Shown in pieces: positions 20,836 to 38,694 of a stretch of DNA of 64,000 nt. This DNA is from Marinibacterium anthonyi (GTDB lineage Bacteria; Pseudomonadota; Alphaproteobacteria; Rhodobacterales; Rhodobacteraceae), in NCBI GenBank assembly GCA_003217735.2, contig CP031585.1, positions 2,033,501 through 2,097,500 on the forward strand, given 5' to 3'. The position numbers and the translations under genes were made by a program. Every line of letters begins with the position of its first letter. The stretch's first letter is position 1. The notes beneath the pieces were generated by a model. It saw nothing but the letters and a program-made list of their open reading frames with translations, did not search any database and was not told the DNA's origin.

Positions 20836-22215
<1,380 letters not shown>

Positions 22216-22230: not shown

Positions 22231-23241
22231 TCAGGCGGTCTGCGGTGCTACGTCGGTGATGATGTCGGTCCAAAGCTCTTCGGGCGCCGGCTCCGGGCTT
22301 TCCTTGGCGAATTCGGCCGAGGCGTTGACCACGGCCTTGATGTCCTTGTCGATCGCCTTGAGGTCTTCCTCGGTCGCGTGGCCGCCGGTCAGCAGCAGGT
22401 CGCGCACATGCTCGATCGCGTCCTTTTCCTCGCGCACCTTCTGGACCTCTTCGCGGGTCCGGTACTTGGCCGGGTCGGACATCGAATGCCCGCGATAACG
22501 GTAGGTCTTGACCTCGAGGATGTAGGGGCCGTTTCCTTCGCGGCAGTGCTTGACCGCCTTCTCGCCGGCTTCCTTGACGGCCAGAACGTCCATGCCGTCG
22601 ACCGCTTCGCCCGGGATGCCGAAGGCGGCGCCACGGTGATAGATGTCGGGCGACGAGGTCGACCGCTTCTGCGACGTGCCCATGGCGTACTGGTTGTTCT
22701 CGATGACGAAGACGACGGGCAGCTTCCACAGCGCGGCCATGTTGAAGGTCTCGTAGACCTGGCCCTGGTTCGCGGCGCCGTCACCGAAATAGGTGAAGGT
22801 CACGCGCCCGTTCTCCAGGTACTTGTCGGCGAATGCCAGGCCCGCGCCAAGCGGCACGTTGGCGCCCACGATGCCGTGTCCGCCGTAAAAATCCTTCTCC
22901 TTCGAGAACATGTGCATCGAGCCGCCCTTGCCGCGGGAATAACCGCCTTCGCGGCCGGTCAGCTCGGCCATGACGCCGTTGGGGTCCATGCCGCAGGCCA
23001 GCATGTGGCCGTGATCGCGATAGGTCGTGATCCGTTTGTCGCCCTCTTCGGTCGCGGCCTCCAGGCCGACGACAACGGCCTCCTGGCCGATATAGAGGTG
23101 ACAGAAACCGCCGATCAGACCCATGCCATACAGCTGCCCGGCCTTCTCTTCGAATCGCCGGATCAGCAACATGTCCTTGTAGAAGGCCTTGAGTTCGTCG
23201 GCTGAAACGTTCGGTTTCTTGGTGGTTCTCCGGGCTGCCAT
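22231..23241 (-). CDS. pdhA: pyruvate dehydrogenase E1 alpha subunit
   Basis: Thiamine diphosphate-dependent decarboxylase subunit, first gene of the operon. The cofactor-binding motif is GDGAANQGQVYETFNMAALW to the following NNQ, and the phosphorylation-loop-like RYRGHSMSDPAKYRT region is conserved. The 336-residue length is normal. The minus-strand start ATG at 23241 follows GGAGGGGAG. A 20-bp palindrome 27 bp upstream matches one before lpd, the gene for the E3 subunit, which is not in this operon. Confidence 0.97.
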   Translation of the reverse strand: MAARRTTKKPNVSADELKAFYKDMLLIRRFEEKAGQLYGMGLIGGFCHLYIGQEAVVVGLEAATEEGDKRITTYRDHGHMLACGMDPNGVMAELTGREGGYSRGKGGSMHMFSKEKDFYGGHGIVGANVPLGAGLAFADKYLENGRVTFTYFGDGAANQGQVYETFNMAALWKLPVVFVIENNQYAMGTSQKRSTSSPDIYHRGAAFGIPGEAVDGMDVLAVKEAGEKAVKHCREGNGPYILEVKTYRYRGHSMSDPAKYRTREEVQKVREEKDAIEHVRDLLLTGGHATEEDLKAIDKDIKAVVNASAEFAKESPEPAPEELWTDIITDVAPQTA

Positions 23242-23267: not shown

Positions 23268-23287
23268 ATAGTTCAACGTTAAACTAT
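23268..23287. promoter_or_regulatory. palindromic operator upstream of pdhA
   Basis: ATAGTTCAACGTTAAACTAT is a 20-bp palindrome with one mismatched pair, 27 bp before the pdhA start. Its core TAGTTCAACGTTAAACTA matches TAGTTTAATGCTAAACTA before lpd at 15 of 18 positions. The compact, AT-rich palindrome resembles sites for MarR-type winged-helix regulators. The regulator itself is not in this window as far as I can tell. Confidence 0.7.
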
Positions 23288-23667
23288 CCATTATCGCAAA
23301 AGGCGGAGGCAGGCGAGGGTTAATGTGACGCGGGTGTCTGGCCGGCTGTCAGAGCCGGGCTGGGTCGCCTGGTCCGCCTCGTGTATCGTGGTCATTTGTC
23401 CTGTGCCGATCAGATAGGGCGACGATCGCGATGGCAAGGAAAACCGACTGTTTCGCCAGGATCGGTGCGTTTCCACTGGCCGGGCCGACGCCCGGTCTGT
23501 CGGCGCCGGTGACCTTGCCGCAGATCCAGAGGTGGACCCGGCCATGTGTCCTTTGACCGTCGGGCATGCGGCTGTGACAAGGCGGCGGGGGAAGCGTACC
23601 GGCAGTTCAGGCCAATGCGCGGGAGCATGACCTGACCCGGCAGCTGCCGCCGGCCTGGTCCGTGTGA
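23288..23667. other. 380-bp stretch without a recognisable gene
   Basis: The gap between the pdhA operator and ftsB. Short open frames occur on the minus strand (for example 23291-23545) but have an Arg/Ser/Pro-rich composition typical of antisense frames in GC-rich DNA, no ribosome binding site, and no known motif. A small palindrome, GTGATC-AGCG-GATCAC, overlaps the ftsB stop codon. An upstream pdh promoter or a small RNA could lie here; I see nothing that proves either. Confidence 0.5.
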
Positions 23668-23973
23668 TCAGCGGATCACGATCTCGTCGGCGCGGATAAG
23701 GCCGAGGACCGATCGTGCCTGCTGGTCCAGCAGGTCCAGGTCCAGGTAGGTGTCCGACAGGCGGTGCGTGAGGTTGTCCATCCGGTCCACTTCGGTGTCG
23801 AGGCGATCGAGGTCCTGTTTCAGGGACTCGGCCTCTGCCGAGATCTCAACCCGGCGGAACAGGCCGTAATCCCCCTGCACGGCGGCGAATGTGAAATAGA
23901 TCCCCAGCGCGAAGGCCAGGGTGAAATAGATCAGCGCGCCGAAGGACGGACGGTTGGTGCGGGGTACGCTCAT
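23668..23973 (-). CDS. FtsB/DivIC family septum formation initiator
   Basis: A 101-residue bitopic division protein. One membrane segment near residues 12-30 (ALIYFTLAFALGIYFTFAAV) is followed by a periplasmic coiled coil (AEAESLKQDLDRLDTEVDRMDNL) and LLDQQARSVLGLIRADEIVI, the usual FtsB end. It should act with FtsL and FtsQ in the divisome. The ATG at 23973 gives the family start; the longer open frame to 24264 runs through the intergenic repeat and is rejected. The position upstream of pdhA is common in alphaproteobacteria. Confidence 0.88.
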   Translation of the reverse strand: MSVPRTNRPSFGALIYFTLAFALGIYFTFAAVQGDYGLFRRVEISAEAESLKQDLDRLDTEVDRMDNLTHRLSDTYLDLDLLDQQARSVLGLIRADEIVIR

Positions 23974-24054
23974 GTGCCTCTGTGCCCGGATTGTTCTTGT
24001 TGGGCTTGCACTTAGTATCGCACAGCCGAATCGGCTTGTGAATCCCCTATTTAT

Positions 24055-24117
24055 GGGGGCGCTGCCCCCGTCCGCCATGGGCGGACTCCCCCGGAGGTAT
24101 TTGGGCCAAGAAGAAGA
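24055..24117. repeat. dispersed intergenic element, copy 3, with two hairpins
   Basis: GGGGGC-GCT-GCCCCC, then GTCCGCC-ATG-GGCGGAC, then GGAGGTATTTGGGCC and AAGAAGAAG. It is nearly collinear with the copy at 17434. It lies between ftsB and the aldolase gene and is followed by a long terminator hairpin and an inverted fragment of itself. Confidence 0.8.
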
Positions 24118-24127
24118 TTGGCAAAAG

Positions 24128-24167
24128 AACAGGGGCGCGATCCCTGGATGGAGCGCGCGCCCCTGTT
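24128..24167. terminator. bidirectional terminator downstream of the aldolase gene
   Basis: AACAGGGGCGCG pairs with CGCGCCCCTGTT over 12 bp around a 16-nt loop. T-rich runs lie beyond the stem on both strands (CTTTCTCTTT on plus, CTTTTG on minus). It is bracketed by the repeat at 24055 and its inverted half-copy at 24177. Confidence 0.8.
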
Positions 24168-24176
24168 TCTTTCTCT

Positions 24177-24194
24177 TTCCAAATACCCGCGCCG
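24177..24194 (-). repeat. inverted fragment of the dispersed element
   Basis: CCAAATACCCGCG is the reverse complement of the CGCGGGTATTTGG core of the dispersed element. Together with the copy at 24055 it frames the terminator, the same inverted arrangement seen in compact form at 30741-30796. Confidence 0.5.
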
Positions 24195-24217
24195 CAGGCA
24201 TGGCGCGGCAGCGGCAT

Positions 24218-25111
24218 TCAGCCCGCGACGGAGGCCGCGTGGATGCTGCCGACCGCTGCGCCAAGGGTGGCGTCGAAGTCTACGTCGCTTTGCTGTGCCG
24301 ACAGACCTTCGGTCAGGGCGCGCGAGAAGCTGGCGATGATGCCGGTGTTCTGGCTGAGCTTCTCGTTGGCCTCGTCGCGCGAATAGCCGCCCGACAGTGC
24401 CACGACCTTCAGCACCTTCGGGTGATCGACCAGCGCCTTGTAGGTATTGGCCACCGTCGGCAGCGTGAGCTTGAGCATCACGATCTGGTCGTCGGGCAGG
24501 ACGTCGAGATGGGCCAGGATCTCGGTCTTCAGGATCTCTTCGGCCTCGGCCTTGTCGGGGATCGAAATGGTCACCTCGGGCTCGATGATCGGAACCAGGC
24601 CGTGGGCCAGGATCTGCTTGCCGATCTCGAACTGCTGGTCGACGATCGCCTTGATGCCGACCGGGTCGGCGGCGTCGACCACCGACCGCATCTTGGTGCC
24701 GTACATGCCCTTGGCGACGGCGCGTTCGAGCAGGGCGTCGAGGCCGGGGATCGGTTTCATCAGCTTCACGCCGTTTTCGGCGTCGGCCAGGCCCTTGTCC
24801 ACCTTCAGGAAGGGCACCACGCCGCAGGTTTCCCACAGGTATTCGGCGGTGGGCGTGCCGTCGATATCGCGGTCCATGGTCTGTTCGAACAGGATGGCGC
24901 CGACGATCTTGTCGCCACTGAAGGCGGGGGACTTGATGATGCGCGCGCGCATCTGGTGGATCAGGTCGAACATCTCGGGCTCGGAGCCATAGGCGTCTTC
25001 CTCGATCCCGTATAGCTTCAGGGCCTTCGGGGTCGAGCCGCCGCTTTGGTCGAGCGCGGCGATGAAGCCCTGGCCTTTGGAAATCTTGTCGGTCTGGGTC
25101 GGGTTGGGCAT
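24218..25111 (-). CDS. class I fructose-bisphosphate aldolase
   Basis: Splits fructose 1,6-bisphosphate into dihydroxyacetone phosphate and glyceraldehyde 3-phosphate, with a lysine Schiff base and no metal. The 297-residue protein shows [49 protein letters not shown] and [14 protein letters not shown], the pattern of short bacterial class I aldolases. The likely Schiff-base lysine is in MLKLTLPT. It lies downstream of pgk in the same direction, with a 120-bp gap that holds a GTTAGCGC-type operator, so it has its own promoter. Confidence 0.94.
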
Positions 25112-25198
25112 TTTCGAATGTCCGTTTTTGTCAATGAGCCGGGCGCGATCCGCGACCGCGTCCCGTGCTTAAGTCATTGAGTCAGCGTCATGCAATGA

Positions 25199-25211
25199 GG
25201 TTAGCGCAACC
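25199..25211. promoter_or_regulatory. GTTAGCGC-type operator upstream of the aldolase gene
   Basis: GGTTAGCGCAACC lies 88 bp before the aldolase start. The GTTAGCGCyAAC pattern is typical of LacI-family regulators, and near-identical sites precede both gap genes here. CceR, a LacI-family regulator of central carbon metabolism in Rhodobacter, is a possible owner by inference. Confidence 0.5.
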
Positions 25212-25231
25212 ACATGACGGGCGCGCGACGA

Positions 25232-26422
25232 TCAGCCGTCAAGGGCGGCGACGCCGGGCAGAACCTTGCCTTCCATCCATTCCAGGAACGCGCCGCCGGC
25301 TGTCGAGATATAGGTGAACCGATCCGCGGCGCCGGCCTGATTCAGCGCCGCGACCGTATCGCCGCCGCCCGCGACCGACACCAGCGTGCCGTCGGTTGTC
25401 AGATCCGCCGCCGTCTGGGCCGCGGCGTTGGTGGCCTTGTCGAAGGGCGCGATTTCGAAGGCGCCAAGAGGGCCGTTCCAGATCAGCGTCCTGGCGGATT
25501 TCAGCACGCTGGCGATCCGGGCCACCGTGTCGGGGCCGGCGTCAAGGATCATCGCGTCGGCCGGGCAGGCGTCGGCGGCCACGGTTTCATGGGCGGCATG
25601 GGCCTTGAATTCGCGCGCGACCACGACGTCGGAGGGCAGGATGATCTCGCAGCCTGCCGCGCGGGCCTTTTCCATGATCCTGGTCGCGGTGGGGGTCATG
25701 TCGTGTTCGGCCAGCGACTTGCCCACGTCGATGCCTTGCGCGGCCAGGAAGGTGTTGGCCATGCCGCCGCCGATCACCAGGTGATCGACCTTGGCCACCA
25801 GGTTGCCCAGCAGATCCAGCTTGGACGACACTTTCGCACCGCCGACCACGGCGACGACCGGGCGCACCGGATCGCCAAGCGCGGCTTCCAGTGCCGAAAG
25901 TTCGGCCTGCATCAGCCGGCCGGCGCAGGCGGGCAGCAGGCGGGCCAGCGCTTCGGTCGAGGCATGGGCGCGGTGGGCGGCCGAGAAGGCATCGTTGCAA
26001 TAGACGTCGCCCAGTTCGGCGAAGCCCGCCGCCAGGTCGGGGTCGTTCTTTTCCTCGCCCGGGTAGAAGCGGGTGTTTTCCAGCAGCACCACGCCGCCCG
26101 GCGCGACCGAGTCGATGGCGGCCTGCGCGGCGGGTCCGCGGCAGTCGGCGGCGAAGGTCACGGGCATCCCGCAGGCGGCTTCCAGCGCGGGCACCACGGG
26201 GCGCAGCGACATCTCGGGGACGTGCTTGCCCTTGGGACGGCCGAAGTGGGCCAGCAGGACGGGCGTGCCGCCGGCGGCGACGATGTCCTTCAGCGTCGGC
26301 ACGATGCGGTCGATGCGGGTGGTGTCGGTGACGTTGCCGTCGTCCATGGGAACGTTCAGGTCCACACGGGTCAGCACGCGCTTGCCCGCCAGATCCATGT
26401 CGTCGAGGGTTTTCCAGGCCAT
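25232..26422 (-). CDS. pgk: phosphoglycerate kinase
   Basis: Cytoplasmic glycolytic and gluconeogenic enzyme that moves a phosphate between 1,3-bisphosphoglycerate and ADP. The 396-residue protein has [59 protein letters not shown] and the C-terminal [12 protein letters not shown]. The start follows GGAGGAG. It diverges from the cyclophilin gene at 26547 across 124 bp. Confidence 0.97.
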
Positions 26423-26546
26423 GGGAGGCTCCTCCGGTCACGTTGGGTCAGCGTTAGTTCACCGGTTCGCGGGGCCGGGTCAATGCCCGGCTTGGCAATC
26501 GGCCGCCCTGCGCTTAGGTATCGTCCGACTGTGACAGGAGAGACCC

Positions 26547-27059
26547 ATGGCCGAGATCAAGGACCCGGAGAACACTATCCTCATCGAGCTGAAGGACGGC
26601 ACCGTCGTCATCGAGCTTCTGCCCGACGTGGCCCCCGAGCATAGCGCCCGGATGAAAGAGCTGGCGCGCGCCGGCCATTACGACAACGTCTGCTTCCATC
26701 GCGTGATCGACGGCTTCATGGCCCAGACCGGCGATGTGCAGCACGGCGACATGGAAGACGGCTTCAACATCCGCATGGCGGGCACCGGCGGATCCGACCT
26801 GCCCGACCTGCCGGCCGAATTTTCGCGTCTGCCCCACGACCGGGGCACGCTGGGCGCGGCGCGGTCGCAGAACCCGAATTCGGCCAACAGCCAGTTCTTC
26901 ATCAACTTCAAGGACAACCACTTCCTGAACGGCCAGTACACCGTTTACGGACGGGTGATCGACGGCATGGAATTCGTCGATGCCATCGTGCGCGGCGAGC
27001 CGCCTGCGGCCCCGGACCGCATGATCACCGTGAAGGTGGCCGCAGATGCAGATGCGTAA
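26547..27059 (+). CDS. peptidylprolyl isomerase, cyclophilin type, cytoplasmic
   Basis: Speeds cis-trans isomerisation of proline peptide bonds. The 170-residue protein has the cyclophilin core: FHRVIDGFMAQTGD, QNPNSANSQFFINF and LNGQYTVYGRVIDGME. There is no signal peptide, so it should be cytoplasmic. It starts after AGGAGAG. The last 14 bases overlap the next gene, which encodes an exported cyclophilin. Confidence 0.95.
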   Translation: MAEIKDPENTILIELKDGTVVIELLPDVAPEHSARMKELARAGHYDNVCFHRVIDGFMAQTGDVQHGDMEDGFNIRMAGTGGSDLPDLPAEFSRLPHDRGTLGAARSQNPNSANSQFFINFKDNHFLNGQYTVYGRVIDGMEFVDAIVRGEPPAAPDRMITVKVAADADA

Positions 27060-27603
27060 GCTGGTCGTTGCGCTGGCTCTGCTGGCGGCCGGACCGGCCG
27101 CCGCGACCGAGCTTGAGATCCAGATCGCGGGCGAGGGCGCCAATGGCACCGTCACCGTCGACCTGTTCGACGACGTCGCGCCGGGGCACGTGGAACGCAT
27201 CACCACGCTGGCGGACGAAGGCGCCTATGACGGCGTCTACTTTCACCGGGTGATCGACGGGTTCATGGCCCAGACCGGGGACGTCGAATTCGCCAAGAAG
27301 GGCGGCGACATGCGCAAGGCCGGGATGGGCGGATCCAAGTATCCGGACCTGAAGGCCGAATTCTCGGACGAGGATTTCGACCGTGGGGTAATCGGCATGG
27401 CCCGGTCCTCCGATCCCGACAGCGCCAACAGCCAGTTCTTCATCATGTTCGCGCCCGCGCCCCATCTGAACGGCCAGTACACGGTGGTCGGCAAGGTGAT
27501 CGACGGCATGGACGTGGTCGACCAGATCAAGCGCGGCACCGGCCCGAACGGCGCCGTGATCGGCGAGCCCGACCGCATGGTGTCGGTGCGCGTGGTCGAA
27601 TAA
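27046..27603 (+). CDS. peptidylprolyl isomerase, cyclophilin type, exported
   Basis: Same fold as its neighbour (FHRVIDGFMAQTGD, SDPDSANSQFFIMF, LNGQYTVVGKVIDGMD), but with an N-terminal signal peptide: MRKLVVALALLAAGPAAA, with cleavage likely after AAA. It should therefore work in the periplasm on envelope proteins. The 185-residue form starts at ATG 27046 or 27052. The two genes look like an old tandem duplication followed by a change of compartment. Confidence 0.94.
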   Translation: MQMRKLVVALALLAAGPAAATELEIQIAGEGANGTVTVDLFDDVAPGHVERITTLADEGAYDGVYFHRVIDGFMAQTGDVEFAKKGGDMRKAGMGGSKYPDLKAEFSDEDFDRGVIGMARSSDPDSANSQFFIMFAPAPHLNGQYTVVGKVIDGMDVVDQIKRGTGPNGAVIGEPDRMVSVRVVE

Positions 27604-27662
27604 GGCCCGGCATTCCCCGGCGCCCGTGTTTGGTGTGGTGTCGGTGCGCGTGTCGAGGTCAA

Positions 27663-27685
27663 GGGGGCGTTCGCGCCCCCTTTTT
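27663..27685 (+). terminator. intrinsic terminator after the cyclophilin genes
   Basis: GGGGGCG-TTCG-CGCCCCC followed by five T, 60 bp after the last cyclophilin stop codon. Confidence 0.88.
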
Positions 27686-27766
27686 CGTTTGCGCCAGACC
27701 GACGCCTGGCCTGGCCCTGCAGGACGGCCAAGGGGCGGCGGGGGCGGGACGCGGATGCCCGAACGC

Positions 27767-27803
27767 AAAAGGGGCGACGCGGGCCTCTGCCTGCGTCGCC
27801 CCT
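27767..27803 (-). terminator. intrinsic terminator after the bactofilin gene
   Basis: On the minus strand GGGGCGACGC pairs with GCGTCGCCCC (extended by an A-T pair) and is followed by TTTT. It lies just past the bactofilin stop. Confidence 0.8.
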
Positions 27804-27824
27804 GAATTTGGCGGTATCGACGGA

Positions 27825-28337
27825 TCAGGTGTCCGTGGACGGTGCCGCTGCTGCGGGCGCCGGTGCGCCGGGCTTGCGGCCCTGGCTCAGCGGATCGTCC
27901 TGGCGCTGCACGGAGCCTTCGAAATGGGCGCCGCTTTCGATCGCGATGGTCTTGTGGATGATGTCGCCTTCGACCCGCGCGGTGGCGGTCAGGCGGACCT
28001 TCAGGCCCCGCACGCGGCCCACGATGCGGCCGTTCACGACGACGTCGTCGGCGGTGACCTCGCCCTTGATCGTCGCGGTCTCGCCGATGGTCAGCAGATG
28101 CGCGCGGATGTCACCTTCGACGGTGCCCTCGACCTGGATGTCGCCGCTGGTCTTGATGTTGCCGGTGATGTGCAGATCCGACGACAGGACCGATGCAGGG
28201 GGCTTGGCCTTGGGCGGCGTGGGCTTGTAGTCGGTCTGACGCGGAGCCGACGGCATCTCGGGCGTTGCAGCAGGCGCAGGCTTGTCGCCTTCGGGGCCCT
28301 TGGGGCCGGGCTCATTGATTTTGCTCTTAGAAAACAT
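27825..28337 (-). CDS. bactofilin (polymer-forming cytoskeletal protein)
   Basis: A 170-residue protein. A Pro/Ala/Lys-rich, unstructured N-terminus (residues 1-50, PAAPETPSAPRQ type) precedes a right-handed beta-helix domain (SVLSSDLHITGNIKTSGDIQ, VEGTVEGDIRAHLLTIGE, IKGEVTADDVVVNGRIVG), as in bactofilins that self-assemble without nucleotide at the membrane. It overlaps the upstream M23 peptidase gene by 11 bp. Bactofilin and peptidase pairs shape cell wall growth in other bacteria, and the same role is likely here. Confidence 0.95.
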   Translation of the reverse strand: MFSKSKINEPGPKGPEGDKPAPAATPEMPSAPRQTDYKPTPPKAKPPASVLSSDLHITGNIKTSGDIQVEGTVEGDIRAHLLTIGETATIKGEVTADDVVVNGRIVGRVRGLKVRLTATARVEGDIIHKTIAIESGAHFEGSVQRQDDPLSQGRKPGAPAPAAAAPSTDT

Positions 28338-29652
28338 CTTTCGCAGCCTTGATATAGGTCATCGGATTGACGGCAGTCCCGTTCACACGGACTTCATAGT
28401 GCAAATGCACGCCCGTCACACGTCCGGAAGCTCCCATATCACCAATCCGGTCCCCGCGCGAGACCCTTTGCCCGACCTTCACGCGGATTTTCGACATATG
28501 CCCGTAGCGTGTCTCGATCCCGAAGTCGTGCTTGATGGTGACCAGGCGCCCGTATCCGTTTTCCCAGCCGGCATGGGTCACCACGCCGTCGCCGGTCGAA
28601 TAGATCGGTGTGCCCGTGGAGGCGGCAAAGTCGACGCCCTTGTGCATCCGGCGGCCGCCGGTCTTGGGATCGCGGCGGTAGCCGAAGCCGGATGTGAAGC
28701 GGAACGCGTCATGGACCGGGACCGCAAAGGGCGCCTTCGAGGCGGCGATGCGATAGAGGTTCAGCGTGTCCATTTCCTTGAGCGCGCGGTTGGCGCGGAT
28801 CTGGTCGGGCGAGGGTTCTTCGCCCCGGGTCGAGAAGCTGAGCGGTGTCAGCGGGCCGCCCTGGCCGGAATAGCCCCGGCGAACCTGTTCAATCAACCGG
28901 TCGGTGTTCAGGCCCGCGGCGCGGAACATCTTGTCCAGGGGTTCGACGGACACGGTCATCGCGTCCTCGATCTGGCGGAAGATCATGTCGTTGCGGTCTT
29001 GCATCAGGCCCAGTTCGCGTTCCAGGTCGTCGGCGCGGGTCAGCGCCTGGGCCGCGTCGGCCCGGATCTGGTCGCGTTCGCGCGCGGTGCGCTCAAGGGC
29101 CTCGGCCAGCAATTCGGTCGGCGCGCCGTTGCCCTCGGCGAGGGCAGGGGTACGCGGATCGTCCATCTCGGCCTCGACGGCGGCCAGCTTGCTGCGCGCG
29201 GCTTCGCGGTCCTTCATCGTGGACCGCAAGGTGGACTGGATCACGCCGATCCCGGTCTCAAGCTCGATCCGGCGGGTTTCCGAGGCCAGCAGTTCGGACT
29301 GCATGGCCGAGATCTGCGTCAGCGCCGCGTTGAAGCGGTCCTGCGCGGCCAGCGCCTCGTCGGCGCGGGCATCGCGCTGTTCGGCCAGGGCATCCAGCCG
29401 GGCGCTGTAGGTTTCCAGGTCCCGCTTGGCCTGTTCCCGGTAACTGCCCGACCCGATGCCATCCATCGCCACGATCGCCGTTGCCAGGATCGCCCAGCAC
29501 AGAACGCCCCCACCCACCGTGTAGGCGGCCAGTTGCGTGACCGGCCGCAGGCGAATGAACCGCGTATCCGTATCGGATTTCAAAAAAACGCGCCGTTCCG
29601 GGAACCATGGTTCCACGACACGGTTTATCTTTACAGCAAGACGCTTTTGCAC
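28327..29652 (-). CDS. M23 family metallopeptidase with membrane anchor
   Basis: Peptidoglycan endopeptidase. The first 45 residues are cytoplasmic, followed by one membrane segment (AAYTVGGGVLCWAILATAIV), a long coiled coil (about 90-230) and a C-terminal LytM domain with the zinc ligands in MHKGVDFA and VHLHYEVRVNG plus YGHMSK. The frame is open to 29736, but GTG at 29652 (VQKRLAVKIN) has AGGAAGG eight bases before it, giving 441 residues. It lies upstream of and overlaps the bactofilin gene, so the two are coupled, as for LmdC and bactofilin in other alphaproteobacteria. Confidence 0.9.
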   Translation of the reverse strand: MQKRLAVKINRVVEPWFPERRVFLKSDTDTRFIRLRPVTQLAAYTVGGGVLCWAILATAIVAMDGIGSGSYREQAKRDLETYSARLDALAEQRDARADEALAAQDRFNAALTQISAMQSELLASETRRIELETGIGVIQSTLRSTMKDREAARSKLAAVEAEMDDPRTPALAEGNGAPTELLAEALERTARERDQIRADAAQALTRADDLERELGLMQDRNDMIFRQIEDAMTVSVEPLDKMFRAAGLNTDRLIEQVRRGYSGQGGPLTPLSFSTRGEEPSPDQIRANRALKEMDTLNLYRIAASKAPFAVPVHDAFRFTSGFGYRRDPKTGGRRMHKGVDFAASTGTPIYSTGDGVVTHAGWENGYGRLVTIKHDFGIETRYGHMSKIRVKVGQRVSRGDRIGDMGASGRVTGVHLHYEVRVNGTAVNPMTYIKAAKDVF

Positions 29653-29717
29653 GCTGTACCTTCCTGTCCCATCCCCATGGGAGCCCCGCCTTGGCGGCAG
29701 TTGTCCCTTGGCCACAG

Positions 29718-29746
29718 TGAATACAATTCGATACACTTTCGGGCAA
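29718..29746 (-). promoter_or_regulatory. predicted promoter for the M23 peptidase-bactofilin operon
   Basis: On the minus strand TTGCCC and TATTCA are exactly 17 bp apart, about 65 bp before the GTG start of the peptidase gene. It is in an AT-richer patch of the intergenic region. Both hexamers match the sigma-70 consensus only partly. Confidence 0.4.
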
Positions 29747-29846
29747 TCCGCTTGTTCCGTCCGCCGCTGGATCCGGGCGAAATGGCGCCATTTGAGCGGG
29801 ATCTTGCCGGTTTCAGGTGTCGCACCGCTGCATGTAGTGTGTTGCC

Positions 29847-30671
29847 TTAACGCAACGCGGGCGGAATTTCGTCGGCAAGCGGCCAGTAGAAATCAGGCGG
29901 CAGGCCGGCGTCGGCGCGCTTTTCCTCGTTGAAGGGCGGCTTCAGAGCGCCATGAAAATAACGGCGCACAAGGCCATGGAACGCATCCTTGGGGTCCAGG
30001 TTGTCGCGCCCGCACAGGAAGTGGAACCACTTCGACCCATAGGCCACATGACCCACTTCTTCGGAATAGATGATTTTCAGGGCATCCACGGCGTATTGTA
30101 TACCGGCCTTCTCGAAAATGGCGATCATGCCGGGGGTAACATCCAGCCCGCGGGCCTCCAGCACCATCGGCACGACGGCCAGCCGGCCCATCAGGTCGCC
30201 TTTGGTATCCTCGGCGGCACGCCACATGCCGGCATGGGCGGGCAGGGCGCCGTACGCGCTGTCCAGCGCCTCGAGGCAGTCGCACATCAGGTTGAAATGC
30301 TTGGATTCCTCGTCCGCCGCCTTGACCCAGTCGTCATAGAACCCGGGCGGCATCGGGATATCGGCGAACCGCGCGATGATGTCCCAGTGCAAATCGACGG
30401 CATTCAGCTCGATATGGGCGACCGCGTGCAACAGGGCGATGCGCCCCGCGGGACTGCCCGGCTTGCGCTTGGGCACGTCGCGCGGACCCAGCAGGACGGG
30501 CCGGTCGGGCCGCGCCGGCTGGTCCGGCGGAGACGCGGCGCCGACCTCCGGCATCTCGCCCCGCGCGCGGGCCTCAAACCATTCGGCCGCGTATTTGCGC
30601 GACAAGGCGGTCTTGGCGCGTCCGTCGGCGGTGGTCAGGACCTCGGTGGCAAGCTCGGCAAGGGGGCGCAT
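29847..30671 (-). CDS. DUF455 family ferritin-like protein
   Basis: A 274-residue soluble helical protein. It has four carboxylate/histidine helices typical of a dinuclear metal site: HAVAHIELNAVDLHWD, KAADEESKHFNLM, VPMVLEARGLDVTP and IYSEEVGHVAYG. DUF455 is related to the ferritin-like MiaE group, so a diiron oxygenase or oxidase activity is plausible, but no reaction is known. It stands alone, with an intergenic repeat upstream. Confidence 0.9.
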   Translation of the reverse strand: MRPLAELATEVLTTADGRAKTALSRKYAAEWFEARARGEMPEVGAASPPDQPARPDRPVLLGPRDVPKRKPGSPAGRIALLHAVAHIELNAVDLHWDIIARFADIPMPPGFYDDWVKAADEESKHFNLMCDCLEALDSAYGALPAHAGMWRAAEDTKGDLMGRLAVVPMVLEARGLDVTPGMIAIFEKAGIQYAVDALKIIYSEEVGHVAYGSKWFHFLCGRDNLDPKDAFHGLVRRYFHGALKPPFNEEKRADAGLPPDFYWPLADEIPPALR

Positions 30672-30740
30672 GAGGAACCTCGTTCAGGGAATTTCGCGCC
30701 CTCTTCTGGAATGTCGGGTCGGGCGGTGCAAGGCGCGCCG

Positions 30741-30796
30741 AGGTATTTGAAGCCAAGAAGAAGCCATTATTTTCTTCTTCTTGGTAATAAATACCT
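30741..30796. repeat. dispersed intergenic element, copy 4, as a long palindrome
   Basis: Two 23-nt arms (30741-30763 and 30774-30796) are inverted copies of GGTATTT-N4-CCAAGAAGAAG, matching at 19 of 23 positions around a 10-nt loop. Differences are confined to the N4 spacer. It lies between the peroxiredoxin and DUF455 genes (both minus strand). As RNA it would fold into a strong, AT-containing hairpin, which could end peroxiredoxin transcripts. Confidence 0.85.
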
Positions 30797-30830
30797 AAGA
30801 TCCACACTGGCCAAACCGTGGCTCGCCGGG

Positions 30831-31292
30831 TCAGAGCGCGCGGACGGCCTCGAGCACCTCCTGGACATGGCCGGGCACCTTCACCTTGTGCCAGGCGCGG
30901 GCGATCTTGCCGTCGGCACCGATCAGGAAGGTCGACCGTTCGATCCCCATGAAGGTCTTGCCGTACATCTTCTTTTCCTTCCAGACACCGTAATCCTCGC
31001 AGGTGGTGCCGTTTTCGTCCGACAGCATCACCGTGCTCAGCCCGTGTTTGGCGACGAACTTGTCGTGGCTGGCGACGCTGTCCCTGGAGATCCCGAAAAC
31101 CTTGGCGCCGGCGTCGGCAAACTCCTGCAATGCTTCGGAAAATCCGATGGATTCCGTCGTGCAACCCGAGGTATCATCGCGCGGATAGAAAAAAAGCACG
31201 ACGGCAGACCCGCGCAGATCGCTCAGGGTCACGGTTTCGCCGCCGTCGCGGGGCAGTGTGAAATCGGGTGCAGTGTCTTGTGCATCCACCAT
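30831..31292 (-). CDS. bcp: thioredoxin-dependent peroxiredoxin, BCP type (1-Cys)
   Basis: Reduces hydrogen peroxide and organic peroxides in the cytoplasm. The 153-residue protein has PDFTLPRDGGETVTLSDLRG, then FFYPRDDTSGCTTE with the peroxidatic Cys44. Where many BCPs have a resolving Cys five residues later, this one has Ile49, so it must use a 1-Cys cycle or an outside thiol. The frame extends to 31697 but MVDAQDTAPDF at 31292 is the family start. It diverges from the AsmA-like gene. Confidence 0.93.
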   Translation of the reverse strand: MVDAQDTAPDFTLPRDGGETVTLSDLRGSAVVLFFYPRDDTSGCTTESIGFSEALQEFADAGAKVFGISRDSVASHDKFVAKHGLSTVMLSDENGTTCEDYGVWKEKKMYGKTFMGIERSTFLIGADGKIARAWHKVKVPGHVQEVLEAVRAL

Positions 31293-31443
31293 TGGGGCCT
31301 CCGGGGTCCAGTTTACGATGTCGTCCAGCCAGTTGGCCGGGCGAAGCTTAGTGCGGGCCCGGCCGGTGTAAAGGCCCGGGGCGCGGGCAACGGATCCGGG
31401 CAGGCCGGGCGGAAAGGACCGGCCATTGGGAGCGGAAGGGCAG

Positions 31444-34400
31444 ATGCCTTCAGTGCCTGAGACCGAAACGCCCGACACGACGGTCCGCCGCGTGCCGGTG
31501 GAGGAGGCGCGCGCCGCGGCCAAGGGGGGCCGCAGGGGCAAGCCGGCGCGCCGCAGGCCGCATCTGCGCAGGGTGCTGTGGCGCCACAGCTGCCGGGTGA
31601 CGTTGCTGGGCGCCTTCTGCGTGCTGCTGATGGTCATGTTCATTGGGCAGACGCTGTCAGCTCCGCCCTGGCTGCGTGAGCTGGTGTCGGCGCGCATCGA
31701 ACTGGCGATGCCGGGCTACAAGGTCGATTTCGGCAATGTTCATTTCGTCATCCGCAAGGGCTGGCGGCCCAGGGTCGGGGTCAATGACCTGCGGATATCC
31801 GATGACGGGGGCCGGCCGATCCTGGAATTGTCCAGCGCCGAGGCCAGCCTTGCGATGCGCCCGCTGCTGCGCGGCAAGGTGAACCCCAAGAAGATCACCC
31901 TGACCGGGGCCCGCATTGCGCTGCGCCGCAATGTCGACGGCGCCGTGGCGCTGGACGTGGGCGAAAGCGGGCGCTTCGTGGAAGAGGCCGAGGATCTGCC
32001 GAAGCTGATCGAGGGCTGGGAAGACCGGCTGCTGTCCGACCCGCTGACCGCGCTGACCGAATTCGAACTGACAGGCGTGACGCTGACCTATGACGACCTG
32101 GCGTCGGGGCGCAGCTGGACGGTGGATGACGGGCGGCTGGAACTGACGCGCCACGGCGACCGGCTGAGCATTTCGGCCGGGTTGAACGTGCTGTCCGGGC
32201 GCAGCTATGCTGCGACGCTCGAGGCCAGTTACGACAGTTCGATCCCCACCCGGGCCGCCACTTTCGGCATCCAGGTGACCGACATGGCGGCCCAGGACAT
32301 CGCCCTGCAGACCCCGGCGCTTGGCTGGCTGGAACCGTTGCGGGCGCCGATTTCGGGATCGCTCAGGGGCGGGATCGGGGCGGATGGCGCGGTGCTGCCG
32401 CTGAATGCCACGCTAAGGATCGGGGCCGGGGCGCTGCAGCCCACCGATGCCACCCGGCCGATCCCCTTCCGGGGCGCGCGGGCCTATGTGTCCTTCGATC
32501 CCAAGGAAGAATTGCTGACCTTTGACGAACTCTGGCTCGACAGCGCCTGGGGCAAGGGCACGGTCGAAGGGCGGGCTTCGATCTCGGGGCTGGAGGAAGG
32601 GCGGCTGGATGCGCTGGTGGGGCAGTTTTCGGCCAACAACCTCACGCTGAACCCGGCCGGCGTCTATGACGAGCCGCTGACGCTGTCGGGGGCCCATGCC
32701 GATTTCCGCCTGCGCCTGCATCCGTTCGAACTGACCCTGGGCGAGGCGCTGATCCGGGATGGCGACGATCCGATCCGGCTGGACGGCATGGTGCAGGCCA
32801 CGGACGCGGGCTGGCGCTATGCGCTCAACGGCCGGATCGAGGAGATCGACGCGACCCGCCTGCTTGAGATCTGGCCCGAGGCGGCGCTGGAAAAACCGCG
32901 CGACTGGGTGCACGAGAACGTGCTGTCGGGGCGGATCCAGGACGTGGATGTCGCCGTGCGGGGCGAACCGGGCATGGCCGATCCCGACGTCTATGCGGAT
33001 TTCGATTTCGACGGGGCCGAGGTGACCTTTTCGCCCAACCTGCCGCCGCTGAAGGGGGCCAGCGGGCAGGCGAGCTTTGTCGACAACCGCCTGGCGGCCT
33101 ATGCCACCACAGGCCGGATCGAGGCTGAACAGGGCGGCGCAATCGACGTGTCGGGCAGTTCCTTCATCGTGCCGGACGTGCGGGTCAAGCCGGCCACGCC
33201 GGCCGTTGTGCGGTTCAAGGCCAATGGCGCGCCGACGGCGGTGCTGTCGCTGCTGGACCGGCCGCCGCTGAGCGTGCTGAGCAAGGCGAACCTGCCCGTC
33301 GACCTGGCCGAGGGACACGTGGCGGTGACCGGAACGCTGGCGCTGCCGATGCAGAAGAAGGTCGATCTGTCGGACATGGATTTCCATGTGAACGGCACCG
33401 TCACCGATGTGCGCAGCGATGTGCTGGTCCCGGGTCACGAGCTGGTCGGCGATGATCTGAAGGTCTTTGTCGACAATTCCCATGTCGAGATTTCGGGAGA
33501 TGGCCAGATCAGCGGCATTCCGGCCAGCTTCAAGTGGACCCAGCCGATCGGCGTCGAAGGCGCCGGCAGCCAGGTCGAAGGACGCGTGGCGCTGTCGCAA
33601 AAGGCGGTGGACGTGTTCAAGCTGGGTCTGCCGGACGGGTCGGTCAGCGGCGAGGGCCAGGCCGATTTCGCGCTGACTATCGGGCAGGGCAGCGCGCCGC
33701 GGATCAAGTTGTCGTCGGACCTGGCGGGCATCGGGCTGAGCGTGCCGGCGCTGGGGTGGCGGATGTCGCAGGGGGCGACCGGATCGCTGGACGTGGATGC
33801 CACGCTGGGCACCCAGCCCGAGGTCAACCGGGTGACGCTGTCGGGCGCCGGCTTGACGATGTCGGGCCGGGTGCTGACCCGGCCGGGCGGGGCCTTTGAC
33901 CGGGCGGTGTTCGACAGCCTCAGGATTGGCAGCTGGCTGAACGTCTCGGCCGAGCTGAGCGCGCGGGGCGTGGGTCTGGCTCCCGCGGTGCGGATCAATG
34001 GCGGCACGCTGGATCTGCAGGGGGCCCAGTTCGGCGAAGGCACGGGCGGGGATTCGCCGCCGCTGTCGGTTTCTCTCGACCGGTTGCAGATCGCCAAGGG
34101 GATGGCCGTCACCGCGCTGAACGCGGATCTGACGACCAATGGCGGGCTGAGCGGCACGTTCACCGGGCGGGTCAATGGCGGCACGCCCATCAGCGGCAAG
34201 GTCATCCCGCAGGGCGCGCGCAGCGCGTTCCAGATCACCGCGTCCGATGCGGGGGGCGTGTTCCGCGATGCGGGCATCATCAAGCAGGCCCACGGCGGCG
34301 CCATGTCGCTGACCCTGCTGCCGGCGCCGGAAGACAGCAGCTATGACGGCACGCTGAAGGTCACCAACACCAACGTGAAGGAGGATTCCGGCGTCGGCGC

Positions 34401-34908
34401 GCTGCTGAACGCGATCAGCCTGGTGGGGCTGATCGACGAACTGGCGGGCAAGGGGATCTCGTTCCTGGAGGTCGACGCGAAATTCCGCCTGTCGCCGACA
34501 AGGTTCACCCTGCTCAGCGCCTCGGCCATCGGGCCGTCGATCGGCGTGTCGCTGGACGGGATATACGACATGGTCACCGACCGGCTGGACATGCAGGGGG
34601 TGCTGTCGCCGCTTTATGCGCTCAACATCATCGGCAGCGTGATGACCCGCAAGGGCGAGGGGCTGATCGGCATCAACTTCGGCCTGCAGGGCCCCGCATC
34701 GGACCCCAAGATCAAGGTCTACCCGCTGTCGGCGCTGGCGCCCGGGTTCCTGCGTGAATTGTTCCGCGACCCGGCGCCCACCGTCAGCAAAAGCCGGACC
34801 GAAGGCGTGCCCCTGACCGGTCCCGTCACGGGGCCCGCCACCGGCACTCCGCAGCCCCAACAGGACGAGGTGCCGCGCGTGCGTCCGCTTGGCGGCGAGG
34901 ATCGCTGA
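31444..34908 (+). CDS. AsmA-like / DUF3971 envelope protein (YhdP-type)
   Basis: A 1154-residue bitopic protein. A basic cytoplasmic tail ([14 protein letters not shown]) is followed by one membrane segment near residues 55-75 ([20 protein letters not shown]) and a very long beta-rich periplasmic part with repeated short strands. The DUF3971 region is central and the AsmA-like end has [20 protein letters not shown] and [17 protein letters not shown]. Relatives such as YhdP and TamB bridge the two membranes and are linked to phospholipid transport. The ATG at 31444 follows GGAAGGG. Confidence 0.9.
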
Positions 34909-34954
34909 CACCAGCGGTTGCAATTCCCGGCGAACCCGCGCAAGGGGCGCGGCC

Positions 34955-36028
34955 ATGAGACTGAGCGATTTCGATTTCGACCTGCCAGAGCAGCTGATTG
35001 CCACGCGGCCCGCCAGGCCGCGGTCGTCGGCGCGCCTGCTGGTGGCCAAGGGCGCGGCGATCCGCGATGCCCATGTGTACGACCTGCCGGGCCTGCTGCG
35101 CCCCGGTGACCGGCTGGTGCTGAACGACACGCGGGTGATCCCGGCGCGCCTGTCCGGCGTGCGCCGGCGCGACGGCGCGCAGGGCCTGACCGAAGCGCGG
35201 ATCGAGGCGACGCTGCTGGGCCCGCGCGCCGATGGCACCTGGGGCGCGCTGATCAAGCCGCTCAAGAAGCTGCGGATCGGCGAGGACGTGGTCTTTGGCG
35301 CGGGGCTTTCGGCCCGGCTGGAGGCGGTCGCGGACGGGCAGGGGCACCTGCGGTTCAATCTTGAAGGCGACGCGTTCCAGGCGGCGCTGGCCGAGGCCGG
35401 CGCGATGCCCTTGCCGCCCTACATCGCCGCCAAGCGTCCCGCGGACGCGCAGGACCGCGAGGATTACCAGACCGTCTGGGCCGAAAAGACCGGCGCCGTG
35501 GCCGCGCCCACCGCTTCGCTGCATTTCGACACGGCGCTGCTGGCGGCGCTGGCGGCGCGGGGCGTGGCGTTCACCCATGTCACGCTGCACGTGGGCGCGG
35601 GCACCTTCCTGCCGGTCAAGGTCGACGACATCAGCGACCACAAGATGCATTCCGAATGGGGACAGGTCAGCGAAACCGCCGCCGCCGAGATCGCCGCGAC
35701 CCGCGCGGCGGGCGGCCGGGTGATCCCGGTGGGCACCACCGCGCTGCGCCTGATCGAGACGGCGGCGCGCGACACGGGCGAGATCCGGGCCTGGGAGGGC
35801 GATACCGACATCTTTATCCGCCCCGGTTTCCGGTTCAACGTGACAGACGCGCTGATGACCAATTTCCACCTGCCGAAATCCACGCTGATGATGCTGGTCT
35901 CGGCGCTGATGGGCGTCGACGAGGTGCGGGCGATCTATGCCCATGCCGTTGCGCATGAGTACCGGTTCTTTTCCTACGGGGACGCTTCTCTTTTGATCCC
36001 GGACCGGGATGTGTCAAATGCGGCTTAA
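34955..36028 (+). CDS. queA: S-adenosylmethionine:tRNA ribosyltransferase-isomerase
   Basis: Adds the ribosyl part of SAM to preQ1 in tRNA to form epoxyqueuosine. The 357-residue protein shows [84 protein letters not shown] and the end [12 protein letters not shown]. The ATG at 34955 gives the family N-terminus. It is 46 bp after the AsmA-like gene. Confidence 0.97.
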
Positions 36029-36112
36029 CAATTGTCGCGGAAGCTACCGGTGGCACGACGGCGATTCGAACAGACCGGACACAACTGAACGATCCAAAGG
36101 GAGGTCCCGGCG

Positions 36113-37390
36113 ATGAAGCAGGTCCTATCGAGCGCCTGGGCACTGATGCTTGGCATGATGTTCCTGATGCTGGGCAACGGTATCCAGTCGACCCTGCTGG
36201 GCGTGCGCGGCGGGATGGAGGATTTTTCCACCCTGCAGATGTCCTTTGTCATGGCCGGGTACTTCCTGGGCTTCCTGGGCGGATCACGCCTGGCGCCCGA
36301 GATGATCCGCCGCGTGGGACATGTGCGGGTGTTTGCCGCGCTGGCCTCGCTGATCTCGGCGGTGATGATCCTGTATCCCTATCCGATCTTCACCAACCCG
36401 ATCGCCTGGACCATCGGGCGCTGCGTGGTGGGCTTCTGCTTTTCGGGCGTCTACGTGACCGCCGAAAGCTGGCTGAACAACGCCGCGACGAATGAAACCC
36501 GGGGCCAGTCGCTGTCGATGTACATGATCGTGCAGACGCTGGGCATCATCGGCGCGCAGGCGACGCTGCTGGTCGCCGATCCGGGCGGATACGAATTGTT
36601 CGTCATCGCCTCGGTGCTGGTGTCTGTGTCCTTTGCGCCAATTCTGTTGTCGGTCACGCCGACCCCGGCCTACGAGACATCCAAGCCGATGACCCTGCGC
36701 CGGCTCTTCGAAAGCTCGCCACTGGGCTGCGTCGGCATTTTCCTGCTGGGCGGCGTCTATTCCGGTCTCTTCGGGATGAGCGCGGTCTACGGCGCCGCCG
36801 TGGGGCTGACGCTGGCGCAGATCTCGACCTTCGTGGCGACCTTCTATGTCGGCGCGCTGATCCTGCAATATCCCATCGGCTGGCTGTCGGACCGGATGGA
36901 CCGGCGGACGCTGATCTTTGTCGGCGGCCTGATCGGCGGCACGGCTGCCATCGCCGGCATGTGGGGAGAGGCCGGATTCTGGATCATCCTGACCGCCGCC
37001 TTCGTGGTGGGGGGGATGACCAACCCGCTCTATTCGCTGCTGCTGGCCCATACCAACGACCACATCGACTATGAAGACATGGCCTCGGCTTCGGGCGGGC
37101 TGCTGTTCATCAACGGACTGGGCGCCATTGCCGGCCCGCTGATCACCGGCTGGCTGATGGGCCCGCACGTCTTCGGACCGTCCGGGTTCTTCCTGTTCAT
37201 CGCCATGCTGCTGCTGGCGCTGGCGGGCTACGCGGCCTACCGGACGACCAAGCGCGCCTCTATCCCGGTCTCGGTGTCGGGTTCCTATGCCGCCGTGGCC
37301 CCGACCCTGACGCCGGTTGGCATGGAAGTTGCACAGGAAATGACCAAAGAGGCCGACATGGACGACAACGACACGAATGCCGCGGCCTGA
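36113..37390 (+). CDS. MFS transporter
   Basis: A 425-residue inner-membrane protein with about 12 hydrophobic segments. The MFS signature between segments 2 and 3 appears as GGSRLAPEMIRRVGHVRV, and between 8 and 9 as GWLSDRMDRRTLIF. TIGRCVVGFCFSGVYVTAESWLN is typical of the small YcaD-like MFS group. The substrate is unknown. The C-terminal 40 residues are acidic and soluble. The start follows GGGAGG. Confidence 0.92.
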   Translation: MKQVLSSAWALMLGMMFLMLGNGIQSTLLGVRGGMEDFSTLQMSFVMAGYFLGFLGGSRLAPEMIRRVGHVRVFAALASLISAVMILYPYPIFTNPIAWTIGRCVVGFCFSGVYVTAESWLNNAATNETRGQSLSMYMIVQTLGIIGAQATLLVADPGGYELFVIASVLVSVSFAPILLSVTPTPAYETSKPMTLRRLFESSPLGCVGIFLLGGVYSGLFGMSAVYGAAVGLTLAQISTFVATFYVGALILQYPIGWLSDRMDRRTLIFVGGLIGGTAAIAGMWGEAGFWIILTAAFVVGGMTNPLYSLLLAHTNDHIDYEDMASASGGLLFINGLGAIAGPLITGWLMGPHVFGPSGFFLFIAMLLLALAGYAAYRTTKRASIPVSVSGSYAAVAPTLTPVGMEVAQEMTKEADMDDNDTNAAA

Positions 37391-37511
37391 CCGAGACACG
37401 GGCGTCATCGTGATGTCATGCTGGTTACAATTCGTGATTGTTCGAAGAAGCCCGGACGTCATTAACTGAATATGAACGAACCAAGTGCGCGCATAACGGA
37501 GGAACGTCGCG

Positions 37512-38090
37512 ATGGTGGGTGCGGAAGACGTCCTGGCCTTTTGGCTGGACGAAGTCGGAGAAAAGGGCTGGTACAAGCAGGACGATGCGGTGGACCAGCT
37601 GATCCGTGACAAGTTCGAAGCGGCGTGGACCGCGGCTTCGGAAGGGTCGTATTCGATGTGGCTGACGTACCCGTCCGGGGCGCTGGCCTATATCATCCTG
37701 ACGGACCAGTTTCCGCGGAACATGTTCCGGGGCGAGGCGCGCGCCTATGCGACGGACCGTCCGGCGCTGGCGGCGGCCAAGGTGGCGATCCACAAGGGCT
37801 GGGACATGCAGATCGACGAACCGGCGCGGCAGTTCTTCTACCTGCCGCTGATGCATTCCGAAAGCCTGTGCGACCAGGACCGCTGTGTCCGGCTGCTGGC
37901 CGACCGGATGCCGCAAAGCGGGGCGCCGAACATGTTGCATGCCCGTGCGCATCGCGCGGTCATCCGCCAGTTCGGCCGGTTCCCCTATCGCAACCAGGCG
38001 CTGTCGCGGTCGACCACCGCGAACGAGGATGCCTACGTGAACGCGGGCGGCTACGGGCAGACCGTGCGGGAATTGCAGGCCGCCGAATAA
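37512..38090 (+). CDS. DUF924 family protein
   Basis: A 192-residue soluble, all-helical protein with the DUF924 pattern: AEDVLAFWLDEVGEKGWYKQDDAVD, ALAYIILTDQFPRNMFRG, LAAAKVAIHKGWDMQ and FFYLPLMHSESLCDQDRCV. The fold is TPR-like and no reaction is established. It starts at ATG 37512 after CGGAGGAACG. Confidence 0.92.
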   Translation: MVGAEDVLAFWLDEVGEKGWYKQDDAVDQLIRDKFEAAWTAASEGSYSMWLTYPSGALAYIILTDQFPRNMFRGEARAYATDRPALAAAKVAIHKGWDMQIDEPARQFFYLPLMHSESLCDQDRCVRLLADRMPQSGAPNMLHARAHRAVIRQFGRFPYRNQALSRSTTANEDAYVNAGGYGQTVRELQAAE

Positions 38091-38108
38091 CGCCGATTGA
38101 CCTTGGGG

Positions 38109-38573
38109 TCAGTTGCCGCCGCTTTCGTCGATCGAAGGCGGCGGCGTTTCGTCCAGCAGGGCCTGCATCATGTGCAGGCCCATCCGCATCAGGTCGATGA
38201 GATCGCCGCGCGGATCGCCCGACAATTCGTCGGGAAGGGCGCGCAATTCGGCGACCCTGTCCTGCATGCTGTCGATCTTGGCCTGGATCTGGTCGATCTG
38301 GGCCCGGGCCGCCACCATGGCGGCATCCGCCTGGTCCCCGGCGCCGGTCGCCATTGTGTCCAGGTCGGACCGAAGGCCCGCCACCTCGTCCTGAAGCCCC
38401 TGCAGTTCGATTGTCACGGGTTCGATGCGGGCGACCACCTGGGTGGCCTGTTCGGCGATGCGTTCCGCGCTGTGGCTGACCTTGAGCGCCAGGAAAAGGC
38501 ATAGCGCGACGAGGATCAGCGTGGCATTGATCAGCGCAAGCACGAGGTCCTTGAGAACTTTCCACATCGACAT
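38109..38573 (-). CDS. single-pass membrane protein with coiled coil
   Basis: A 154-residue protein that I do not recognise. One membrane segment lies near residues 8-30 (LVLALINATLILVALCLFLAL), followed by a long heptad-like helix (AERIAEQATQVVARIEPVTI, then QIDQIQAKIDSMQDRVAELR) facing the periplasm or cytoplasm. The start at 38573 or two codons later both fit the GGAG at 38577. It diverges from lpd, and the pdh-type palindrome lies between them, so it may share that control. Confidence 0.7.
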   Translation of the reverse strand: MSMWKVLKDLVLALINATLILVALCLFLALKVSHSAERIAEQATQVVARIEPVTIELQGLQDEVAGLRSDLDTMATGAGDQADAAMVAARAQIDQIQAKIDSMQDRVAELRALPDELSGDPRGDLIDLMRMGLHMMQALLDETPPPSIDESGGN

Positions 38574-38676
38574 ACACTCCGTGTCAGGCGCCGCCAGCAT
38601 CGTGCGGCTGCAGTATTCGGTCAAGCAGGCGATGTTCCAATTGTCGCGGGCCGTGCCATTGATGGCGTCGCGGAAG

Positions 38677-38694
38677 TAGTTTAATGCTAAACTA
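38677..38694. promoter_or_regulatory. palindromic operator upstream of lpd
   Basis: TAGTTTAATGCTAAACTA: perfect 7-bp arms TAGTTTA and TAAACTA around ATGC, 32 bp before the lpd start. It matches the pdhA-upstream palindrome at 15 of 18 positions. It lies in a divergent intergenic region and could also affect the coiled-coil membrane protein gene. Confidence 0.72.

Follow-up and report, generated by a model that had tools for sequence, protein, structure and literature searches.

The window, a stretch of 64,000 nucleotides from Marinibacterium anthonyi, carries the genes of the pyruvate dehydrogenase (PDH) complex at two separate places. On the reverse strand, pdhA (E1 alpha, 22231..23241) is followed by pdhB (E1 beta with an N-terminal lipoyl domain, 20836..22215) and pdhC (E2 dihydrolipoamide acetyltransferase, 19513..20823). 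The E3 gene lpd, coding for dihydrolipoamide dehydrogenase, stands apart on the forward strand (38727..40121). The four products score above the cut-offs of TIGR03182, PRK11892, TIGR01349 and TIGR01350, respectively, and the E1/E2 operon and separate E3 gene proposed by an earlier, sequence-only reading hold by these models.

Upstream of both units lies an 18-nucleotide palindrome: TAGTTCAACGTTAAACTA at 23269..23286, which reads TAGTTTAACGTTGAACTA on the reverse strand that carries pdhA, and TAGTTTAATGCTAAACTA at 38677..38694 on the forward strand, before lpd. Their sequence, and their conservation before the same two genes in relatives, make them predicted operators. The earlier reading was exact in these matters. 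The positions are confirmed; the two 18-mers are identical at 15 of 18 positions; both are palindromic, with base pairs kept at 8/9 in the first and 7/9 in the second; and 27 bp separate the palindrome from the start codon of pdhA, 32 bp from that of lpd. It also held a chance origin to be unlikely, and 100 shuffled versions of the window yielded no match. At up to three mismatches, the window has no further copy.

A predicted third target and the conservation of the sites

Scanning the whole 6.8 Mb genome with the pattern TAGTTYAANGNTAAACTA yields three sites at 0 mismatches and five at exactly 3 mismatches, the reversed-pattern control giving 11/3 at up to 3 mismatches. When the limit is set at two mismatches (with slightly different patterns), just three sites are found, with 0/0 in the reversed control. 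The genome-wide search proposed by the sequence-only reading thus returns three good copies, not hundreds, and these precede pdhA, lpd and a third gene, maeB. This last site, TAGTTTAACGCTAAACTA (L003:1501-1518), lies outside the window and ends 24 bp 5′ of a malic enzyme gene. The first 492 residues of its product – the extent of the locus – match positions 4-493 of the 764 of the NCBIfam model for NADP-dependent malic enzyme with 745.9 bits, the model cut-off of 1178 bits being meant for the whole protein. The idea of a PDH regulon is therefore supported, but the earlier reading missed maeB as a target and left the protein that reads the palindrome unnamed.

The same reading had asked for conservation in related genomes. 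Allowing two mismatches, a site is present in 37 of 61 genomes (our own and 60 relatives), that is in 29 of 37 members of the family, our own included, against 8 of 24 genomes from other families. The 28 family genomes besides our own hold 66 sites, one to four each, and 58 of the 66 stand immediately before pdhA (25), lpd (16) or maeB (17): the sites are kept before the same genes across the family. The eight others are scattered: two in carB (L053 and L103, the gene being identified by reading), one in another coding frame, two between convergent frames (L046, L061), one before aroC and two in G035, a genome 74% complete. Those in carB and between convergent frames were treated as chance matches. 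The copy before aroC, TAGTTTAACGTTAAACCA, is near-perfect and found in G013 about 80 bp 5′ of this chorismate synthase gene (L066:1261-1278); it is either a lone additional target or the product of chance. Elsewhere, in G068, three motif-like sites with 2 mismatches crowd within 5 kb (G068:C15:92428-97105), perhaps as extra targets.

When oriented and aligned, 72 sites (37 from pdhA, 17 from lpd and 18 from maeB, taken from promoters with a site at up to 3 mismatches only) give the consensus TAGTTTAACGTTAAACTA, with 26.8 bits over both strands. MarR proteins recognise operators of palindromic form. The 72 sites have the form of a MarR-type operator, palindromic, about 16-20 bp long and placed over the target promoters, and are predicted to be bound as such.

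A candidate MarR regulator and its co-occurrence with the motif

Candidates for the protein reading the motif were sought with PF01047 (MarR) in eight genomes, MarR being the one family screened. The smallness of G032, a site-bearing genome of 2.4 Mb, is convenient here: it has five matches, which on reading are two Lrp-type proteins (L114, L145), one that we take from sequence likeness to be LdtR-like, one presumably PetP-like (such a MarR is also seen in G014 and in our own genome) and a third MarR (L122/L184). The LdtR-like protein is common to the eight genomes screened, but it was rejected: of 28 genomes that are edge cases or do not have the candidate, 19 retain it. The orthologue of the third MarR in our genome is a protein of 147 amino acids encoded at G000:C1:5294039-5294479, outside the window and unlinked to its presumed targets. 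Nor did a regulator gene adjoin the targets in the eight odd loci whose frames were read; the remaining 58 loci were matched against pdhA, pdhB, pdhC, lpd and maeB only.

The gene of this regulator has grxC and ubiG beside it; in relatives a carbon-nitrogen hydrolase gene lies between, and all three neighbours are found within 2 kb of it in 72 of 80 named loci. In our own genome the hydrolase, just upstream of the regulator (L157:1938-2264), is a frame of 108 amino acids, as against 277-278 in four loci of relatives; it looks internally deleted, with only the sequence of its two ends kept. The closest named orthologue of the regulator, 93% identical, is from Marinibacterium profundimaris, and the protein is present in named members of Ruegeria, Roseovarius and Phaeobacter. 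Six in-family loci of the regulator (L266, L269-L273) were scanned, and none has a site before the gene; L271 has one 3-mismatch match inside it.

Several features place the protein in the MarR group. It reaches 41.5 bits with Pfam MarR_2 (cut-off 27) and, with 23.3 bits, falls just below the cut-off of PF01047 (24.6). The GntR model gives 12.9 bits for a cut-off of 27, and no effector domain of the GntR/FadR type appears among the eight families listed. Among the named MarR subfamilies of NCBIfam (HpaR, FabT, SlyA, OhrR and others), the highest score is 28.6 bits, where the cut-off is 220. AlphaFold2, run on the 93%-identical Marinibacterium orthologue with 33 alignment rows, predicts a MarR winged helix with pLDDT 92.9 and pTM 0.81 (the five models have pLDDT 92.9, 90.9, 69.7, 62.5 and 57.1), in which a helix at 66-78 coincides with the segment of the covarying residues discussed below. 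The first four PDB matches to the model are of MarR type, with TM 0.73-0.81, and DNA complexes of ST1710, MarR, MftR and HpaR are among the closest solved structures. These proteins resemble the regulator in fold and size, yet they share with it only about 19-27% identity, and the presumed targets of the latter belong to central carbon metabolism. The protein of our genome has no cysteine, which makes thiol oxidation an unlikely trigger of release.

Regulator and motif go together. In 43 genomes searched with the protein, 37 of them from the family, a strong match (E<1e-49) was found in 31 of the 37, the protein being missing or weak in G006, G010, G016, G019, G031 and G035. The first five have neither a strong regulator nor a motif site; in four of them (G006, G010, G016, G031) no site was found within 200 bp of pdhA even at 6 mismatches. 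G035, whose genome is incomplete as noted above, has a perfect pdhA site and no regulator match. Three genomes with the regulator and no site at up to 2 mismatches (G017, G022, G027) have weak sites that start 33-47 bp before pdhA, with 3, 5 and 3 mismatches.

A larger sample, 246 genomes of the family with a completeness of 95 or more, has the protein (E<=1e-20) in 222 and the motif (at most 2 mismatches) in 215: 213 genomes have both, 9 the regulator only, 2 the motif only and 22 neither, four of the regulator-less ones (G214, G257, G272, G277) having been assigned by elimination and G277 alone then confirmed by direct search. The motif is thus found in 213 of 222 genomes with the regulator versus 2 of 24 without it (Fisher p=3.8e-22, a guide only because the species are not independent).

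Of the two motif-only genomes, G085 has a single site, with 5/4 in the reversed control and no pdhA site at up to 4 mismatches, and G277 has sites before pdhA, lpd and maeB while the regulator was not found in its 360 contigs. Among the nine with the regulator only, five (G017, G027, G087, G158, G237) keep a 3-mismatch site directly before pdhA, G158 having another before maeB, and G022 has a 5-mismatch site before pdhA. In G118 the homologue, which lies in the grxC neighbourhood, is diverged, and the pdhA promoter has no site with 3 mismatches or fewer. For G213, also with the regulator only, and for G134, no pdhA was matched at the chosen thresholds; both have diverged regulators. Taken one by one, the pdhA promoters of 13 of 15 regulator-positive genomes, and of 0 of 14 regulator-negative ones, have a site with no more than 3 mismatches; these are hand-picked edge cases rather than a sample, and the limit was chosen once the data had been seen. 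A 4-mismatch site at -47 of pdhA in the regulator-negative G167 may be a relic. As a separate observation, 10 of the 24 regulator-less genomes (G019, G073, G080, G091, G095, G113, G119, G136, G163, G191) have no E1-alpha match at the thresholds used, and may use another type of PDH.

Homologues in nitroreductase operons

In 340 genomes of the class, a homologue (E<=1e-18) is found in 28, 22 of them outside the family. In these other alphaproteobacterial families the homologues are 34-47% identical to the regulator and mostly lie behind a nitroreductase-like gene. The same operator is there as well, associated with a K-G-A or R-G-A recognition helix: in 15 of the 22 loci outside the family it occurs as tandem copies 20-24 bp apart. 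What differs is that two operators in tandem precede the neighbouring nitroreductase-like gene.

Thirty homologues were compared, the 22 from outside the family and eight diverged or additional copies inside it, and 26 of the 30 adjoin a nitroreductase-like gene; two such genes, tested as examples, exceed the NCBIfam cut-off for FMN oxidoreductases of the Acg family. The recognition helix of the homologue and the DNA in front of the nitroreductase-like gene vary together. Where the helix has K-G-A or R-G-A (16 of 26), the motif is present upstream of this gene, with at most 3 mismatches, in 16 of 16, and 15 of these carry it twice, with a spacing of 20-24 bp. Where it has another sequence (10 of 26), a single motif-like site is seen in 2 of 10 (p=2.9e-5, for helix classes set after seeing the data and genomes several of which are close kin). 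All these motif counts come from a pattern scan, and an unsupervised search for tandem palindromes found the motif pair in part of the promoters only.

Paralogues with V-P-K-T-T/S have tandem TAGTACGATATCGCACTA-like palindromes instead (L263, L265, L293, L296, L297), a change that reads as a natural switch of specificity within this MarR group. We predict that a helix going from V-T-R-G-A to V-P-K-T-T would be accompanied by a half-site going from TAGTTTAA to TAGTACGA.

Outside the count of 26 operons, the four homologues without a nitroreductase gene (L280, L378, L379, L380) also have K-G-A or R-G-A. Three of them, L378-L380, still adjoin grxC and look like diverged orthologues; L280 (G442), with K-G-A and no nitroreductase neighbour, has no site in the stretch examined. 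G039 and G045, the two genomes with homologues of the nitroreductase type whose pdhA promoters were scanned, have no site there. In the four genomes seen to have both the PDH regulator and a nitroreductase-operon paralogue (G017, G026, G081, G275), the helix of the paralogue is a different one and the motif is absent from its operon. G010, without the PDH regulator, has a nitroreductase-operon paralogue with K-G-A and a weak motif copy.

As to how this came about, we would lay an even bet on the following scenario: a MarR protein that guards its own nitroreductase-like (Acg-type) operon in other Alphaproteobacteria would, in the family of our organism, have moved to a new neighbourhood and been recruited to central carbon metabolism, its operator unchanged and spreading to pdhA, lpd and maeB. 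A tree of the regulators groups the family clade loosely (83/35) with five nitroreductase-type sequences. Rooting with other MarR proteins failed, the outgroup branches being 2.5 to 10 changes per column long; the tree is unrooted and compatible with either direction of change. If the scenario is true, we would have a natural example of a regulon replaced while its binding site was conserved, and in addition a MarR protein that senses the pyruvate/acetyl-CoA node. The covariation of helix and operator is a natural data set for MarR specificity.

Sign of control, alternatives and meaning

Repressors usually bind over a core promoter or start point. At pdhA, a putative -10 element, GATAAT (23290..23295, reverse strand), stands directly upstream of the operator; at lpd, a putative -35 element, TTGATG (38659..38664, forward strand), precedes it by 12 bp. 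Read by eye and with simple counts across the promoters, one of the triplets TAT, TAA and TAG occurs in the roughly 11 bp before the operator in 31 of 37 pdhA promoters, 2 of 17 lpd promoters and 3 of 18 maeB promoters. A -35-like TT is present in 13 of 17 lpd promoters (TTG in 12 of 17) and in 13 of 18 maeB promoters (TTG in 3 of 18), and in both cases the operator starts at a fixed distance, 12 bp, 3′ of this element. Operators thus likely cover part of the core promoter or the transcription start at all three genes, and this position suggests a repressor rather than an activator.

Most likely, the palindromes are operators of one MarR regulator, the 147-amino-acid protein with orthologues across the family, which would repress pdhABC, lpd and maeB until a ligand displaces it. 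A MarR-like repressor was what the sequence-only reading had guessed, and a PDH regulon read by such a protein is supported by the co-occurrence of regulator and motif, by the operons of the homologues and by helix-operator covariation. A dimer would bind TAGTTTAACGTTAAACTA over the -10/start region of the three units and block their transcription. A small ligand – our guess is pyruvate, a CoA ester or some other compound of this metabolic node – would release it, and the enzymes leading from malate to pyruvate to acetyl-CoA would be induced together with the E3 subunit. In other families, the homologue would act on two such operators in tandem and so control its own operon, which includes the nitroreductase-like gene.

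Could the protein read the motif and yet activate some or all of the three promoters? Some members of the group are activators, and LdtR is termed one in published abstracts. We find this unlikely, for the pdhA operator lies just 3′ of the -10-like stretch, and those of lpd and maeB 3′ of the -35-like element. It is decidedly unlikely that the motif is the operator of a different transcription factor with which the MarR protein co-occurs merely by shared ancestry. The regulator gene is unlinked to the targets, and a single family was screened, which leave room for this view; but the tandem motif in the promoter of an operon that encodes the homologue, in other families, is an independent link, and the covariation of helix and operator speaks against mere co-occurrence. 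The LdtR-like MarR, which the small genome G032 has as well, is disqualified by its retention in 19 of the 28 genomes noted above, edge cases or without the candidate.

Control by a known alphaproteobacterial carbon regulator such as CceR, of the LacI family, is more doubtful still, indeed very improbable. The LacI-type consensus is TGNAANCGNTTNCA, and no such site exists in the 600 bp around each of the three sites of our genome. Nor is the centre of the motif a fixed CG: among the 72 sites, position 9 is C in 43 and T in 25, and position 10 is G in 59 and A in 13. What speaks for CceR is a predicted action on both PdhAB and malic enzyme in Rhodobacter sphaeroides (RSP_1663; PMC4344238) and a lower amount of MaeB protein reported for a Paracoccus cceR mutant (PMC11323563). 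CceR has predicted or observed effects on the two enzymes that our regulator would control, but it is a global regulator of another family. Finally, chance, or a promoter or terminator sequence with no dedicated protein, would account for the few of the 66 sites found within coding frames or between convergent ones (L046, L061, L053, L084, L103), and has next to no weight as a general explanation in view of the shuffles without a match, the small number of sites per family genome, mostly before the same genes, and the loss of the motif along with one regulator.

The system that best invites comparison with our proposed MarR repressor is PdhR of gammaproteobacteria, described in PMC5343134 as a pyruvate-responsive regulator of aceEF-lpdA belonging to the GntR family. 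PdhR is a dedicated, local regulator of the PDH complex, lpd included, as the MarR protein would be, and its regulon is small in some lineages. PdhR is a GntR protein, whereas here we have a MarR protein, split target operons and a malic enzyme among the targets. Among the open-access literature matches listed, there is no earlier description of a MarR regulator of PDH in the group of our organism, though subscription papers could hold one.

PDH and malic enzyme stand at the branch point of glycolysis, gluconeogenesis and the TCA cycle. Very probably we are dealing with a small switch from malate and pyruvate to acetyl-CoA, run by one previously unassigned MarR-type protein. To the question of how a large, mostly marine family switches PDH and malic enzyme, this gives a testable answer: one small regulator, present in 222 of 246 sampled species, would govern three operons.
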